61,927 nt of DNA. Source: Spirochaetia bacterium (lineage in GTDB: Bacteria; Spirochaetota; UBA4802; UBA5550). The DNA lies in the NCBI GenBank assembly GCA_009885955.1, contig VFJS01000025.1:1-61927 (forward strand). Direction: 5' to 3'. Below are positions 3,983 through 59,329 of the stretch, piece after piece (the first letter of the stretch is position 1; each line of letters begins with the position of its first letter). The notes below the pieces were generated by a model. The model was not told where the DNA came from and did not search any database. It saw only the letters and a list, made by a program, of their open reading frames with translations. The position numbers and the translations under genes were made by a program.

Positions 3983-4005
3983 CCCCTCTCCGAATCGGAG
4001 AGGGG
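3983..4005. repeat. Short hairpin, CCCCTCTCC repeat family
   Basis: A near-perfect 23-nt palindrome with a 10-bp stem (CCCCTCTCCG/CGGAGAGGGG). The identical sequence occurs at 8058-8080. It sits just past the stop of the TlpA-like gene, so it may also act as a transcript end. It belongs to a dispersed repeat family whose fuller members lie at 5244-5342, 8044-8173 and 60355-60458. Confidence 0.7.
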
Positions 4006-8043: not shown

Positions 8044-8173
8044 GACCTCACCCCCGGCCCCTCTCCGAATCGGAGAGGGGAGTGTTGCATGAATATCAGG
8101 TAATTCAAAAAAAAAATAATTTTCACAATCTCCCCCCCTCTCTTGCCAGGAGAGGGGGCCGGGGGGTGAGGTC
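8044..8173. repeat. Inverted pair of CCCCTCTC repeats
   Basis: Two arms of about 40 bp face each other: 8044-8080 begins GACCTCACCCCCGG and 8132-8173 ends CCGGGGGGTGAGGTC. Each arm also contains its own small hairpin. The whole could fold into a long stem with a loop of about 50 nt. It lies in the 400-bp gap between the SUMF1-domain gene and the ankyrin gene; the rest of that gap shows nothing recognisable. Confidence 0.8.
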
Positions 8174-29799: not shown

Positions 29800-32313
29800 C
29801 TAATTCCCCCCTTTAATAGTAATCTTACCACGATAGGGGACTCCTTTTGTATCAAGTATAGACCAGTTATACACAGTAAATTTATTATACCCTACGCCAG
29901 ACTGGTAGGGTGCTAATGTAATGATATCATTAACTGCTGCGGGGCTTGCATCAGGTGTATTGATGGTGACAGTAAGCTTTTTGTTGGAATCCGACCAGAC
30001 TGCACTGACAGTTCCCCACTTATGGCTGTTGTTCAGGGGCAGAACCTGGTCAATGCTGAAATCCGAAGTTGTTGTGCTGTTTGCCGATACAATAGAGAGT
30101 CCCTTTGTTGGATCGGAAAAAATTATTGTAACCACATCCTCGGAAACAAGGGTACCGGTTGCCTTTGATGCATATGTATAGGCCTCGTTCAGGCTCGTCC
30201 TGGCATAGCGGTAGGTGCCGTCCCAATGGCAGTTTGCACTGCAGTATTCAGGATACTGCGTAGCGGGAAAATTGGCATTCCCGAATTTCCCGTATTCAAT
30301 TCCATCTTCAATTTCTATGGTAAAGTACCATTCGTCCCAGATGTAGGAATATCTTCCATTTGTTCCGTGTACATTATGACAGGTGACGCAGCTCTGGGCG
30401 CCGCTGGAGGTCACCCCCCTGTAATACCACATAGATATCTGGAGATGGTAAAGGTGCAGGTTAAACTGCCGGTCATAATTATATGCCTTGTAATCATGAA
30501 ATCCTCCTGACATGAATCCGGTCTGGTAGGGAAACTGAGTATAATTAGGCTGATTCTGGGAATAATTGCCTCCCGGGGCAACACGCACAAGCTCCTCAAC
30601 AGTCGGCAGGCTGGAGTAATTGTTGTGACAGTCCAGGCAGAGCTTGTAGCGCGTCTCGTCCCACGTCGCGTTCGGCACAGGGAGCACCATTTTATTTGCC
30701 AGGAGCCCGGTATTCCCTGAGCCATGGGCATTTATCGTGCTTGTTGCCGTACTTGAATTATAATTTCCATGGCAACCGGTGCCCGGAGTCCCGTCCCCGA
30801 GGCATGTGAGCCCCTTTCTCCTGTGGCCGTTCTGCATCTCCCATGCGGATTTGATCTTTGTCCCGGCAATATTTCTTCCCGTTCCCAGGGTATTTGTGGT
30901 TGAAGCAAAGGGCTTCATATTTCCGTTGGCCCCGTCGGTGTCATGGCAACCCAGGCAGAATGCCTCGGCGCTGGATGGAGTGGCAGGGTTATAAAGAACT
31001 ACCTGTCCCGGATTATTATAATCCTTCAGCCGAATGAGCCCGCTCATGTGCCTGTCCTGGTCATGGCACGCGGTACAGTCAGATTCCTGGACTATCTGCC
31101 TTGTACTGCTTGCGTAATCTATGACATGGTGTGAAGTCTTGTTGAAATCGCCGCCGGTTCCTGTGCCGTTGCCGTTGGAGTCGAATACCTGCCTCCTGCT
31201 CCCCACGGCTGCCTTGTGGCAGTCTGAACAGGCAGGGATCGGCCAGACCGTTGTACCGTACCAGTCAAGTGCCGCAGAGGGATGGCATGTGAGGTTTGTA
31301 CAACTCCCTGTCTGCGCCCCTGTATCATTTATCCATTGCCCGCCGGTATTTGATGAATCAAAGGTAATAAGCTGGGCCGATGAAGATTCCTGATCGAAAA
31401 TACCATTTTTATGTAAACTGTATGAGCCATACCCTGAATGGCACTTCTCGCAATAAATTCCCGCATGCTTGACATGCCTCCCCTTGCCGGCTGCCGTGTC
31501 TATGACGGCCGGGTCATTCTGGCTCCCGGTGGAATGGCATGCATAACAGCCGTTTGTTTTAGTCTCAATTTTTGATATTTCCACAGGAGATTCATCGGCA
31601 TACCAGGATATTCCGTTTGAATACCCATGGCACGATATGCTGTTGCAAGTTCCCGATGTATCATTAAATGCCCCCGAGACCGTACTCCCCTTGAAGCTGT
31701 CCCCGAAATAAATTATTGTAGCGGTCTCGGTCCTGCCATAAATTCCATTCATATGGGTAGTCTGTTTCTTGTATCCATTATGGCAGTTGACACATTTAAA
31801 GCCTGCAGCCTCCCTGTGGATGAAATGTTTGCCGTTTATTCCATCCCTGTTTGTAACAATAGGATCAATGGAAGATCCATCCTGGTGACATGCCTTGCAT
31901 TCATTGCTCAATGAATCATACCAGCCGGCAGAACCTGTCGCGCTTCTATGGCACGATATATTGCTGCAGTTTCCGGCGCTGTTGTCCCATGAAGCGGTAC
32001 TTTTCTGCTGATCAAAATAAATTATTGCATTTGTGCTCCTGGCATTATAGACTCCGTTCCTGTGTTCCGGTTTATTGTAATATTCAAAATGGCAGTCCTC
32101 ACAGATATATCCGCGGGTAAGATGCTCAGTATGCTTGCCGGTATTAGGCGGGTATTGCCTGAGTAACGTAGATACATGACACTCTGACGCGGTACAGGTA
32201 GAATTTTTTTCTGTGCTGCCTGTAGTATTTACGGCACTGCACCCGGTTATTGATAAAAATATCAGCAAAAATAAAAATTCACTTTTACGCGAAAAATTTA
32301 AACTACATTTCAT
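29800..32313 (-). CDS. Multiheme c-type cytochrome lipoprotein, about 15 hemes (CxxxxCH/CxxCH type)
   Basis: An 837-aa exported cytochrome. The signal ends with a lipobox (LSITGCSA). I count ten CxxCH motifs (such as CEDCH, CKACH, CVNCH, CYACH, CEKCH, CTACH, CVTCH), four CxxxxCH motifs (CTASECH, CSNISCH, CNSISCH, CTNLTCH), one CxxxCH (CSANCH) and a possible wide motif CLGDGTPGTGCH. The alternation of CxxxxCH and CxxCH with HxxGIY spacers is the pattern described for Geobacter cytochromes. The last 130 residues have no heme motif and look like a beta-sandwich. Such proteins carry electrons across or outside the outer membrane. The propeller lipoprotein gene follows without a gap. Confidence 0.92.
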   Translation of the reverse strand: MKCSLNFSRKSEFLFLLIFLSITGCSAVNTTGSTEKNSTCTASECHVSTLLRQYPPNTGKHTEHLTRGYICEDCHFEYYNKPEHRNGVYNARSTNAIIYFDQQKSTASWDNSAGNCSNISCHRSATGSAGWYDSLSNECKACHQDGSSIDPIVTNRDGINGKHFIHREAAGFKCVNCHNGYKKQTTHMNGIYGRTETATIIYFGDSFKGSTVSGAFNDTSGTCNSISCHGYSNGISWYADESPVEISKIETKTNGCYACHSTGSQNDPAVIDTAAGKGRHVKHAGIYCEKCHSGYGSYSLHKNGIFDQESSSAQLITFDSSNTGGQWINDTGAQTGSCTNLTCHPSAALDWYGTTVWPIPACSDCHKAAVGSRRQVFDSNGNGTGTGGDFNKTSHHVIDYASSTRQIVQESDCTACHDQDRHMSGLIRLKDYNNPGQVVLYNPATPSSAEAFCLGCHDTDGANGNMKPFASTTNTLGTGRNIAGTKIKSAWEMQNGHRRKGLTCLGDGTPGTGCHGNYNSSTATSTINAHGSGNTGLLANKMVLPVPNATWDETRYKLCLDCHNNYSSLPTVEELVRVAPGGNYSQNQPNYTQFPYQTGFMSGGFHDYKAYNYDRQFNLHLYHLQISMWYYRGVTSSGAQSCVTCHNVHGTNGRYSYIWDEWYFTIEIEDGIEYGKFGNANFPATQYPEYCSANCHWDGTYRYARTSLNEAYTYASKATGTLVSEDVVTIIFSDPTKGLSIVSANSTTTSDFSIDQVLPLNNSHKWGTVSAVWSDSNKKLTVTINTPDASPAAVNDIITLAPYQSGVGYNKFTVYNWSILDTKGVPYRGKITIKGGN

Positions 32314-33068
32314 TGAAACCCCTCAAAATAAATATATTTAAATTTGAATATATTTTTTATTTCATTAAAATTTACATTATATCAAATGCTTAATACAAAA
32401 CTATATATATAATCAAATTTTAGCAAATATTGTCAATATGTATTTCTACTTAGTAAACTAAAAAATTAAATTTTATATAAATTTATCATATTGCCGCCGC
32501 CACCTATAGTTTGGTATGATAGATTTTTATACTACTAGAAAAATACCCTCTCCCCCAACCCCTCTCCCAAAATAGCTGACTCCTACCCACATCTTTCGAA
32601 TCAGCCCCCGGCCGATGATACTTATAATAAATCTTTAATATTTTTCGGCCACCCCCGGGGGTTAGTAAAAATAGTGGTTTTTTATTGTATAATATATCAT
32701 TTCAAATATGTTTATCCAATTAGATTGTGACGATACTTTCTCTGTAATAAAAATCGATGTTAATAACCACCTCCGGGGGTGGCGTCAGTATGTAATAATC
32801 AAGCACTGAGTCTATCCGCCGGGGGCTTATGTTTGGGCGTTACTAATGTAGAAAGGTGGGTAGAAGTGAGCCCAAAATAGGGTGAGGGCACTTAGTGTCC
32901 CATTTAGGGGTCAGTGGGATGATTGATGATACATCTTCAGCATAAAAAAGTTCATGAATAATTCAAAGATTTTTTATCATACTCATACTTTATCGTATCA
33001 ATGAAAAAATATTTGAAGCCGGAAATGAACATCAAATGCGGCAATTTTATATTATGTTAGGATACAGA
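32314..33068. other. Long intergenic region holding two nested repeats
   Basis: 755 bp between the divergent cytochrome operon and the Nramp gene. From the left: a very AT-rich stretch with the cytochrome promoter, a degenerate GCCGCCGCCACC fragment near 32493, the left part of a CCCTCTCC-type repeat (32545-32575), the MITE-like element (32576-32870), then the right part of the older repeat (GGTGAGGGCAC, from 32881). The last 100 bp should hold the promoter of the Nramp gene. Confidence 0.7.
32576..32870. mobile_element. MITE-like element, copy 1, with 10-bp target duplication
   Basis: A noncoding element of 295 bp. Its ends are inverted repeats: CTgACTcCTACCCAC at the left and, read from the other strand, CTcACTtCTACCCAC at the right (lower case marks mismatches). 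It is flanked by the direct repeat CCCAAAATAG at 32566-32575 and 32871-32880. Inside are GC-rich patches CCCCCGGCCGATGATAC, GGCCACCCCCGG, CTCCGGGGGTGGCG and CCGCCGGGGGC within AT-rich DNA. A closely similar copy lies at about 58997-59282 in the same orientation; diverged, inverted relatives lie near 37095-37290 and 41344-41456. It has no coding capacity. Confidence 0.85.
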
Positions 33069-34334
33069 ATGAATATACGTAATTTCATAAAAGACCTGAA
33101 AAGCAAAGACCACAAACCGCAATTTTCAGCCCTTGATATATTCAAATATATAGGCCCCGGTCTTCTTGTCACCGTAGGTTTCATCGATCCCGGGAACTGG
33201 GCCGCCAACATAGCCACAGGGTCGGAATTCGGCTACACACTTTTATGGATCGTTACCCTGTCTACAATTATGCTGATTATCCTCCAGCACAATGTAGCAC
33301 ACCTGGGCATTGCCACAGGGCTCTGCCTCTCTGAAGCAGCTGCCATTTATGTGAAACCCATTGCGTCAAAATTTGTACTTTACTCAGCGATGCTTGCGTC
33401 AGTTTCAACATCCTTTGCAGAAATTCTCGGCAGCGCCATTGCCCTGAACATGCTCTTTTCACTCCCCCTTGAACTGGGAGCCCTCATGACCGCGGCATTA
33501 TCGGGGATAATTCTCTTTACAAATTCCTACCGGAAAATTGAAAAATGGATAATCGGATTCGTATCAATAATAGGCATATCCTTCATCTACGAATTATATC
33601 TCATCGACGTCCCATGGGCCCATGCTGCAAAATCCTGGGTAGTCCCGTCAATACCCGAAGGATCAATAGCGGTAATCATGAGCGTCCTGGGGGCGGTTGT
33701 AATGCCCCATAATCTCTACCTCCATTCAGAGGTTATACAGAGCCGTCAATGGAATTTAAAGGATGATACGATAATAAAAAGACAGCTGAAATTTGAATTT
33801 ACCGACACCCTAATATCAATGATCGCAGGGTGGGCAATCAACAGCGCCATGATTATTTTAGCAGCCGCAACTTTTTTCAGCTCCAATATAAAGGTCGAAG
33901 AGCTTCAGCAGGCTCAACAATTATTAAAACCACTGCTCGGTGACAGCGCATCCATTGTTTTTGCCATTGCCCTTCTCTTCGCGGGCATCAGTTCATCGAT
34001 TACATCAGGGATGGCCGGGGGGACAATAACCGCCGGAATTTTTAAAGAGCCCTTTAATATCAGTGATAATCATACCAGGCTGGGAATTGGAATATCTCTC
34101 TTCCTCGCGCTGATAATCATCTTTTTTATATCAAATCCCTACAAGGGTTTGATATACTCCCAGGTTATATTGAGCATACAGCTCCCCTACACGATATTTC
34201 TGCAGATTTACCTGACATCATCAAAAAAAGTAATGGGGAAATATGTGAATGATAAATTTACCTTAACCATCCTTTTAACTACCGCTGCCATAGTTTCTTA
34301 TCTGAATATCAAACTTCTTATTAACTTTTTATAA
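33069..34334 (+). CDS. Nramp-family divalent metal transporter
   Basis: A proton-coupled Mn2+/Fe2+ importer of the Nramp/MntH family, about 421 aa with 11 membrane helices. The metal-site motifs are both present: DPGNWAANIA in helix 1 and VVMPHNLYLHSEVIQ in helix 6. The start at MNIRNF is chosen because AGGA lies 6 nt before the ATG at 33069; upstream in-frame ATGs at 33036 and 33054 lack such a site. The gene is alone and convergent with the polyferredoxin gene (6 nt between them). Metal choice between Mn and Fe cannot be told. Confidence 0.92.
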   Translation: MNIRNFIKDLKSKDHKPQFSALDIFKYIGPGLLVTVGFIDPGNWAANIATGSEFGYTLLWIVTLSTIMLIILQHNVAHLGIATGLCLSEAAAIYVKPIASKFVLYSAMLASVSTSFAEILGSAIALNMLFSLPLELGALMTAALSGIILFTNSYRKIEKWIIGFVSIIGISFIYELYLIDVPWAHAAKSWVVPSIPEGSIAVIMSVLGAVVMPHNLYLHSEVIQSRQWNLKDDTIIKRQLKFEFTDTLISMIAGWAINSAMIILAAATFFSSNIKVEELQQAQQLLKPLLGDSASIVFAIALLFAGISSSITSGMAGGTITAGIFKEPFNISDNHTRLGIGISLFLALIIIFFISNPYKGLIYSQVILSIQLPYTIFLQIYLTSSKKVMGKYVNDKFTLTILLTTAAIVSYLNIKLLINFL

Positions 34335-36892: not shown

Positions 36893-37312
36893 ATCAGCCC
36901 GCCCCTCCCGATTGATTAGAATTATTCAACACTAATGGGAACCCTGATTCAGGTATCAGGCATCCCATATTTCATTACATGGAATGGGTTAAAAGTTATC
37001 AATAAAAAAATTATCCGGTTAATAGTAAATTTATTGGCGTGAATTAAATTCGTGCAAGTAAATTGGAAAATACTCCGGCATTCTCTGTCAATTTAATAAT
37101 TACCCACATCTGTTGCATTCCAGCCCCCTAAATCCCCCGGAGGGGGACTTAAAGATTGCTTTACTGAACTTTACCCATTTTTCAACCCCTGCCGGGGGTG
37201 GCCGAAAAATATTAATGAAAAATAAGAAGTTCCATCGGCCGGGGGCGGATGCTGGGGATTTGGGGCCTCTTTCGGATGGGGGATTCTTACTGTCTATGAT
37301 TCTGGAGCAAGG
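36893..37312. other. Intergenic gap with a diverged inverted relative of the MITE
   Basis: A 420-bp gap between two minus-strand operons. Its right half (about 37095-37290) carries TACCCACATCT, CAGCCCCCTAAATCCCCCGG and, further on, CCGGGGGTGGCCGAAAAATATTAA and ATCGGCCGGGGGC, matching the left part of the element at 32576-32870 on the opposite strand. The left half is AT-rich and should hold the DUF362 promoter. Confidence 0.65.
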
Positions 37313-38068
37313 TCAGTACTCGCTGTTACATACCGGGCATTTCTGCATCACCAGGGGCCTCTCCAGCTGGCTTTTTTCGAGGATCTCACCATTGCTGAAA
37401 ATATCCTTTGTTGTGCCGTCCGCCATGATTTCGCCGTTATGCATGACGATCGTGCGCCCGCAGAGATCCAGTGCCATGTCAAGGTCGTTTGTGGCAATGA
37501 TCTTGGTATGCTCAAAGCTTGATAACAGCCTGATGAGCCTGCGCCGTGCCCTGGGGTCAAGATTTGCCGTGGGCTCATCCATGACCAGAATATCAGGCGA
37601 CATGGCCAGGACACCGGCAATGGCCACCGCCTTTTTTTCACCGCCTGACAATTTGTACGGCGGCCTGTCTTTCAGCCCCAGGGCGCCGACCCTGGTAAGG
37701 GAATTTTCAACTATTTTTTCCACCTCTTCAGGCGGGATCCCCAGGTTCAGCGGGCCGAAGGCAACATCATCCCTCACCGTGGGCATGAACAGCTGGTCAT
37801 CGGAATTCTGAAAGACCATGCCCACGGTCCTTCTTACGGAATTCAGGGTGTTCTTTGTAACCGGAAAATCTCCAATCCTCACTGAGCCCGAAGCAGGAAC
37901 CAGGTAGCCGTTTAAATGAAGGAGCAGGGTGGTTTTCCCTGTGCCGTTTGCTCCAACGATGGCAACCGATTCTCCATGGGTGATCCTGAAAGAAATATTT
38001 TTTAATACCGGAATGTTATCGGGATAATTGAAAAAGAGATCCTTCACTTCCACGATATGATGGCTCAT
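37313..38068 (-). CDS. Nickel/cobalt ECF transporter ATPase CbiO/NikO, H-loop His replaced
   Basis: A 251-aa ABC ATPase powering group I ECF nickel/cobalt import. It has Walker A GANGTGKTT (about 37-45), MVFQNSDDQLFMPTVRDDVAFGPLN, the signature LSGGEKKAVAIAGVLA, Walker B ILVMDEPTANLD and a CPVC near the C-terminus. At the H-loop, where relatives read ATHDLDL, it reads ATNDLDM: the switch His is Asn (codon AAC). It is the last gene of the nikR operon and overlaps cbiQ by 4 nt. Confidence 0.9.
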   Translation of the reverse strand: MSHHIVEVKDLFFNYPDNIPVLKNISFRITHGESVAIVGANGTGKTTLLLHLNGYLVPASGSVRIGDFPVTKNTLNSVRRTVGMVFQNSDDQLFMPTVRDDVAFGPLNLGIPPEEVEKIVENSLTRVGALGLKDRPPYKLSGGEKKAVAIAGVLAMSPDILVMDEPTANLDPRARRRLIRLLSSFEHTKIIATNDLDMALDLCGRTIVMHNGEIMADGTTKDIFSNGEILEKSQLERPLVMQKCPVCNSEY

Positions 38069-41284: not shown

Positions 41285-41343
41285 CATAGCATATACCTGA
41301 AAAATGTCAATAGTATTAATGAAAATTTTTGGCTTAGCATTAG

Positions 41344-41490
41344 CCCCCGGCGGATAGATTCATTGTTTAAATGTATCATGCTGCCGCCGCCCCCTCAAGG
41401 GGGTAGCCGCAAAATATTAATACTATATTGGAATACCATCTGCCGGAGGTTACAATGGAAGAGCGCGCGCATAGCGCTGGTGAGGCAGCA
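41344..41490. repeat. Degenerate repeat fragments
   Basis: 41344-41456 begins AGCCCCCGGCGGATAGATTCA and continues with GCCGCCGCCCCCTCAAGGGGG, matching the right end of the MITE-like element at 32576-32870 on the opposite strand. It runs directly into 41459-41490 (GAGCGCGCGCATAGCGCTGGTGAGGC), which resembles the end of the hairpin repeat at 60433-60458. Confidence 0.6.
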
Positions 41491-58808: not shown

Positions 58809-59329
58809 TATTCCTCCTTTTTCTTCCATGACAACTCTCAAATCTCATTATTTTCGCCTTGAACATTCACCTTCTCCGGTTTTTATATAAATTATAATGA
58901 TACCGGTCCATTTTGTAGATTCCATTAAAATTCAAAATTAAGATGATACTTTTATAAAAAACCATCCCATTGTACAATTGTCAAGTTTTATTATATCTAC
59001 CAACATCTTTCGAGTCAGCCCCCGGCCGATGATACTTAAATAAATCATTAATATTTTTCGGCCACCCCCGGAGGTGGTTAATAAAAATAATGGTTTTTTA
59101 TTGTATAATATATCATTTCAAATATTTTTATGCAATTAGATTGCGACGATACTTTCTCTGTAGTAAAAATCGATGTTAATAACCCCTTCCGGGGGTGGCG
59201 GCAGTATGTAATAATCATACATTGAGTCTATCCGCCGGGGGCTTATGTTTGGGCGTTACTCATGTTAAAATGTGAGTAGAATTTCGCCCTATCGGTGAAA
59301 GCATTGGAATTATTTTGGGGAAAATTATA
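58809..59329. mobile_element. Intergenic region with MITE-like element, copy 2
   Basis: The element occupies about 58997-59282 and is nearly collinear with that at 32583-32870, with scattered base changes and no large gaps. Its terminal inverted repeats are more decayed (CTACCAACAT at the left, TGAGTAGA at the right) and no clear flanking duplication is visible, so it is the older copy. The left flank contains copy 2 of the TTGTCAAGTTTTATTATAT motif (58977-58997) upstream of the MazF-type operon. Confidence 0.8.

Follow-up and report, generated by a model that had tools for sequence, protein, structure and literature searches.

Hairpin-loop-targeting MITEs with shared 17-bp ends in one spirochaete order, and a GxxExxY gene between the same ends

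REP-like hairpins are among the commonest repeats of bacterial genomes. Several insertion sequences target REP sequences, namely ISRm22 (IS4 family), ISPsy8, IS1397, ISKpn1, IS621 and ISPpu9/10 (PMC1525189). Insertion of ISRm22 and the other REP-targeting elements occurs at or near the symmetry axis of the REP palindrome, as it does in the elements described here, and ISRm22 likewise makes a target duplication that is mismatched in some copies, for which recombination between copies has been proposed (PMC1525189). However, the REP-targeting insertion sequences are full elements with a transposase gene, whereas the element here is non-coding; their duplications are 0-6 bp long (PMC1525189), as against 9-11 bp here; and, unlike them, the elements here use different hairpins in different genera. 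In the literature searched, hairpin landing sites are described for full insertion sequences only; here they are used by a whole group of MITEs.

Tn5/IS50, also of the IS4 family, typically duplicates 9 bp. Its targets are palindromes whose duplicated stretch ends in GC pairs (PMC1525189), and those seen here are similar. In addition, the consensus end of the present elements, CTGACTTCTACCCACATTT, starts with CTGACT, as does the Tn5/IS50 end, and agrees with the outside end of Tn5, taken from PMC3347997, at 13 of 19 positions. In contrast to Tn5/IS50, the duplication here varies in length, and no Tn5-like transposase with these ends was found among PF01609 genes. Among bacterial MITEs, MITEAba12 is, in the accessible part of its description (PMC6382973), similarly short and non-coding, with inverted ends and a target duplication, and is moved in trans. 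Going by the same part, it differs from the elements here in the hairpin-loop target, in the several unrelated interiors found behind one set of ends, and in the relative that bears a GxxExxY gene. The present elements form a new group of MITEs that target hairpin loops; the group is restricted to one order and is a variant of REP-targeting mobile DNA as already known.

The window, that is, the whole stretch of DNA analysed (61,927 nucleotides), belongs to a genome of 4.77 Mb in 117 contigs. An earlier note on it had described a MITE-like element with inverted ends (13 of 15 bases) and a 10-bp target duplication on both sides, inserted into an older repeat, and each of these points is borne out. 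A 295-bp non-coding element occupies exactly 32576-32870 (Table 1), flanked by a multihaem cytochrome gene (29800-32313, minus strand) and a divergently oriented Nramp transporter gene (33036-34334, plus strand). Its terminal inverted repeats are 17 bp long; of their first 15 bases, 13 are identical between the left end (CTGACTCCTACCCAC) and the reverse-complemented right end (CTCACTTCTACCCAC). The duplication CCCAAAATAG is exact over 10 bp and lies at 32566-32575 and 32871-32880. Excision of the element with one duplicate gives CCCCTCTCCCAAAATAGGGTGAGGGC, a REP-like hairpin (CCCTCTCCC-AAAATA-GGGTGAGGG) that is kin to uninterrupted hairpins elsewhere in the window. A single strand of the element folds into one long hairpin (z -3.9, beating 200 of 200 shuffles), and an Rfam search of the element region gave no match up to an E value of 1. 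The hairpin-loop target, the 9-11-bp range of duplications, the shared ends on differing interiors and the gene-bearing relative go beyond what the note had claimed.

Table 1. Positions in the window of the element, its target and related sequences.
Feature	Position	Strand	Basis
Whole MITE, family A copy, 295 bp	32576..32870	.	no ORF of 150 aa or more overlapping
Left terminal inverted repeat CTGACTCCTACCCACAT	32576..32592	+	sequence of window; consensus CTNACTTCTACCCACAT, 52 ends
Right terminal inverted repeat, CTCACTTCTACCCACCT on minus strand	32854..32870	-	sequence and end scan
Core of family A, including inverted arms of its own, AGCCCCCGGCCGAT / ATCCGCCGGGGGCTT	32603..32829	.	genome matches, folding
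Left half of split REP-like hairpin: arm CCCTCTCCC (32560-32568) and loop including duplication copy 1 CCCAAAATAG (32566-32575)	32560..32575	+	sequence; at least 64 intact stems genome-wide
Duplication copy 2 CCCAAAATAG (32871-32880) and right hairpin arm GGGTGAGGG (32880-32888)	32871..32888	+	sequence, copy comparison
Second family-A copy, 91% identical, ends degraded, flanks without hairpin	58997..59281	+	genome matches, copy comparison
Family-A core fragment without terminal repeats	37192..37250	-	genome matches, window inspection
Family-A core fragment without terminal repeats	41338..41394	-	genome matches, window inspection
Uninterrupted hairpin of the target kind CCCTCTCCGAATCGGAGAGGG	8059..8079	.	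window inspection
			

A search of the genome with the 295-bp sequence gave 21 matches, the element itself and 20 others, nine of which extend over about 250 bp or more; the whole-length copies share its ends. Family A comprises about ten related copies, aligned at full length and with common ends, at 74-96% pairwise identity (matching orientation). A second group, family B, was recovered with a looser end scan and consists of seven copies of ~205 bp (85-92% pairwise identity) with the same ends and an interior unlike that of A. The element at 32576-32870 is thus short, non-coding, bounded by terminal inverted repeats and present in many copies, as a MITE should be. Some family-A copies are truncated, run to a contig edge or are broken internally (L006, L010, L012/L014 and L013), and those at contig edges show the assembly breaking at family-A repeats. 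A scan of the genome contig collection with a family-A interior pattern gave zero matches.

Pieces of the family-A core are also present in the genome without terminal repeats (L016-L021). In the window, such end-less pieces adjoin other REP-like sequences (AGCCCCCTAAATCCCCCGGAGGGGGACTT) at 37130-37330 and 41338-41460, which suggests that the core is an older repeat captured between the ends. Paired REP-like hairpins make up the core, an arrangement known from BIMEs and REPINs, and on this ground the element might be classed as REPIN-like and its mover as a REP-associated tyrosine transposase (RAYT, Y1). However, REPINs are, to our knowledge, without terminal repeats and duplications, and no duplications are expected when a Y1 enzyme transposes REPINs, whereas here perfect target duplications stand next to defined terminal repeats. 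The likeness to REPINs and BIMEs with their RAYTs lies in the REP-unit look of both the target hairpins and the family-A core, as judged from the accessible parts of the sources (PMC3116915, PMC2817692). A REPIN/RAYT-type mobility of the element as a whole is very improbable, and such an origin may apply to the family-A core alone.

Uninterrupted hairpins of the form CCCTCTCCC-N(2-9)-GGGWGAGGG are found at least 64 times in the genome, versus 0 for a reversed control pattern. Among them is CCCTCTCCCAAAATAGGGAGAGGG at C70:99196, with a loop identical to that of the site at 32576-32870. Further uninterrupted hairpins in the window, at 3984-4004, 8059-8079 and 8134, are of the same general family with a shorter stem. 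Independent copies of the element are likewise duplicated at their flanks, with the same CCCAAAATAG on both sides of L007 and CCTGGCAGG at L003. Neither outcome that the earlier note had named as contrary to its reading, copies with other ends or a duplication missing from all other recent copies, was seen. Exact duplications adjoin both ends in 15 of 47 copies (seven genomes), with 9 bp as the commonest length (seven copies, against six of 10 bp and two of 11 bp), and a further 11 of the 47 have duplications with one or two mismatches. These lengths are unambiguous, since the register of the duplication is fixed by the ends of the element. When the empty sites were reconstructed and compared with random 42-mers from the same loci (not GC-matched), folding was below the 5% level of the 42-mers in 10 of 14 cases in the source genome (G000), in 14 of 19 in G012 and in only 2 of 6 in G028; in the two best-sampled genomes, the targets are mostly hairpin loops. 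Several copies have two hairpin flanks whose loops differ, and these, like the mismatched duplications, are as expected after recombination between copies.

REP arms flank most family A and B copies in the source genome, and the arms could accordingly be part of the mobile unit, with the whole CCCTCTCCC...GGGTGAGGG block moving and the apparent duplication being the repeated loop of the composite. However, the loops differ among copies and match across each intact copy (CCTGGCAGG, CCCGAATAGGG, CCCGGCAGGG and CCCAAAATAG), intact hairpins outnumber split ones, and in other genomes the same ends lie in unrelated sequences with duplications (TTGATCAAA, AGTATGCAC and AATATGACG). The REP-MITE-REP composite was rejected as a mobile block on the behaviour of the loops, and we give it hardly any weight.

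Family-A DNA was not found in the 19 relatives searched. The 17-bp end, in contrast, recurs: seven of 20 genomes from the family have it when one mismatch is allowed, and 8 of 46 genomes of the order have it exactly. Among 393 genomes sampled across the phylum it is found in seven, all of them in this order, and in none of the 347 searched outside the order. Ends close to these are confined to one spirochaete order. A scan of viral contigs with the ends returned two chance matches only, both within coding sequence. One relative, G012, carries 39 ends, many of them on a 196-bp element (family C) of which most copies are 96-99.5% identical, and which has therefore been recently active in that genome. 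Exact duplications in G012 include CCCTCTGGG, CCCCTCGGGG, CCTCCTCCGGG, CCCCGGAGGG and CCCAAAGGGG. The first of these surrounds a 196-bp element that lies within a 412-bp element with an imperfect duplication of its own (G012:C1:15120-15531; L083:221-632), and thus one MITE landed in a hairpin carried by another. Nesting of this kind, together with the uninterrupted sites, makes the order of insertion directly readable. Duplications were also found in G004 (TTGATCAAA) and in G029 (CCGCCGAAG, at the tip of a strong hairpin).

At two further loci (L072:1501-1744 and L107:1208-1517) the same ends enclose an inverted pair of GCCCCCTAAATCCCCCGGAGGGGG-type repeats; elements of the group thus carry REP-like units and also target such units. 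At L069:1501-1620 (G012:C23:13789), the left end of an element and a REP-like stretch lie inside an unbroken frame of 1005 codons that is polyketide/fatty-acid synthase-like, as though the gene had taken up the remnant of a MITE in frame.

In G028, from another family of the order, the ends enclose an element of ~499 bp (482-500 bp) with one ORF of ~130 aa. Its protein is a member of the GxxExxY family (TIGR04256, E 4.5e-38; PF13366, E 4.2e-38). There are at least six copies, of which two keep the frame intact and the rest are damaged or have stops. Six of the seven G028 elements with these ends carry the gene. The seventh, at C15:75666-75925, is 260 bp long and has arisen by internal deletion, but still codes for the C-terminus (VNVAKEGADFRRIEI). 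G028 thus contains both the GxxExxY element and a shortened form derived from it, and no PF01609 transposase gene of the source genome, G012 or G004 is bounded by these ends. Among the G028 copies, one has an exact 9-bp duplication (AGTATGCAC) and others have imperfect duplications, among them TGTGAATAC/TGTGAAAAC of 9 bp. Among the GxxExxY-bearing genomes of the order with checked loci, G028 alone has the gene within these terminal repeats; the genes of the other checked loci are not inside them.

Subterminal arms are common to the G028 element and to families B (source genome) and C (G012). The family B interior scored 49 against the G028 element, with a maximum of 36 in 500 shuffles, and the arm layout of family C matches by eye (GTGTAAG, and iterated GGAGAT-like runs with their complement). 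In contrast, the family A interior scored 21, with a shuffle mean of 22, and has the ends alone in common. No significant GxxExxY remnant was found inside families A, B or C, the G028 deletion copy being the only one. The catalytic D..ExK residues are invariant in the GxxExxY proteins compared. The predicted structure of L165, a 66%-identical Nitrospinae relative (pLDDT 89), has a PD-(D/E)XK fold; its nearest structural match is SSO0001 (Z 10.8; 98 residues at 3.2 A), which we take to be a Cas4-like protein, with the Holliday junction resolvase Hjc at Z 8.1. The profile matches, the D..ExK residues and the fold, the last from the L165 model, are those of the GxxExxY / PDDEXK_3 family; a search of solved structures with the GxxExxY protein sequence found none.

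These observations raise the alternative that mobility is due to the GxxExxY PD-(D/E)XK protein, acting as the enzyme or as a partner that the enzyme requires, with the ~499-bp G028 element as the autonomous form and the MITEs as its internal-deletion derivatives. No other gene was found between these ends, a deletion series with a coding derivative exists, the G028 copies have 9-bp duplications, families B and C have the G028 arms, the catalytic residues are invariant, and the modelled fold is near SSO0001 and Hjc. However, G012, with its recently mobile near-identical MITEs, has only a 79-aa fragment of GxxExxY, the GxxExxY genes of the source genome are without the ends, and family A is linked to the G028 element through the ends alone. 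Among the G028 copies, non-synonymous/synonymous ratios come from few changes and are scattered, and purifying selection is not clear. Arms of the cassette also surround GxxExxY genes that lack these ends (L136 and L165), which fits a cassette captured as cargo. We know of no PD-(D/E)XK protein that acts alone as a staggered-cut transposase. On the movement in G012 without an intact gene, the end-less genes of the source genome, the arms at L136 and L165 and this lack of precedent, cargo with an unseen DDE transposase is favoured, and a GxxExxY mover is unlikely. Slightly less likely still is its strongest form, a new class of mobility nuclease in which ~0.5 kb, made up of 17-bp ends and a ~130-aa protein, would be a complete minimal element that makes 9-11-bp duplications, prefers hairpin loops and spawns MITEs.

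The favoured reading, to which we give a probability of roughly 0.72, is that of a group of hairpin-loop-inserting MITEs with 17-bp ends, moved in trans by a staggered-cut transposase that is putatively IS4/Tn5-like, with GxxExxY as cargo. The element would belong to a non-autonomous terminal-inverted-repeat (MITE) subfamily in a group defined by the 17-bp ends (CTNACTTCTACCCACAT). A protein supplied in trans would bind the ends and insert the element within the loop region of REP-like hairpins, probably with a cut 5' of the C run on each strand, and repair of the gaps would leave the 9-11-bp duplication, with a length tending to follow the hairpin core. The mover may be a DDE enzyme of the IS4/Tn5 kind, and the gene in the G028 element would be cargo.

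The earlier note had seen no fitting transposase in the window, and this extends to the whole genome, where none of the six DDE_Tnp_1 (PF01609) genes bears the ends. Neither do the two PF01609 genes in G012 nor the two in G004, and no PF01609 genes were found in G024, G008 and G025. The search used this one Pfam model on genomes of draft or MAG quality, from which a multi-copy transposase could be missing. End pairs spanning a stretch the size of a transposase or insertion sequence are absent from the source genome and G012, and unpaired ends in G012 and at contig edges have neighbouring genes only, with transposase absent. The IS4-family trait of a CTGACT-type end with a 9-bp duplication is present, as a resemblance rather than membership. 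This, together with the 13/19 end match and the palindromic GC-clamped targets, makes an IS4/Tn5-like mover the leading inference, and the mover is plausibly of this kind. Against it, the only gene-bearing element with these ends encodes another kind of enzyme, and duplications that vary over 9-11 bp are unusual for Tn5 itself.

The GxxExxY connection is the part worth following. In the literature searched there is no description of GxxExxY function, the name being mentioned in passing, nor of the repeats that flank the genes. The ends shared with the G028 gene give this widespread protein family a concrete mobile-element context, in which its function is now testable. GxxExxY loci were noted in many phyla (L165-L244, 80 loci, and L114, L116, L117, L121, L123, L126, L139-L143, L151, L152 and L155), and L136 (G040) and L166 (CALMJO010000345.1) have identical GxxExxY genes. 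Among those with long flanks, 44 of 56 loci from many phyla show direct or inverted similarity between the two 300-bp flanks (score of 32 or more), versus 5 of 168 control windows taken from elsewhere in the same loci. The pattern suggests an architecture, that of a cassette or an element, which is widespread. If GxxExxY were the mover, the iterated repeats that surround its genes across many phyla would represent the ends of related elements or the scars they left. The flanks are made up of iterated short motifs, for example AACCGCCAAGACGCCAAGGACGCCAAG or ACAGGATTTACAGGATGAACAGG.
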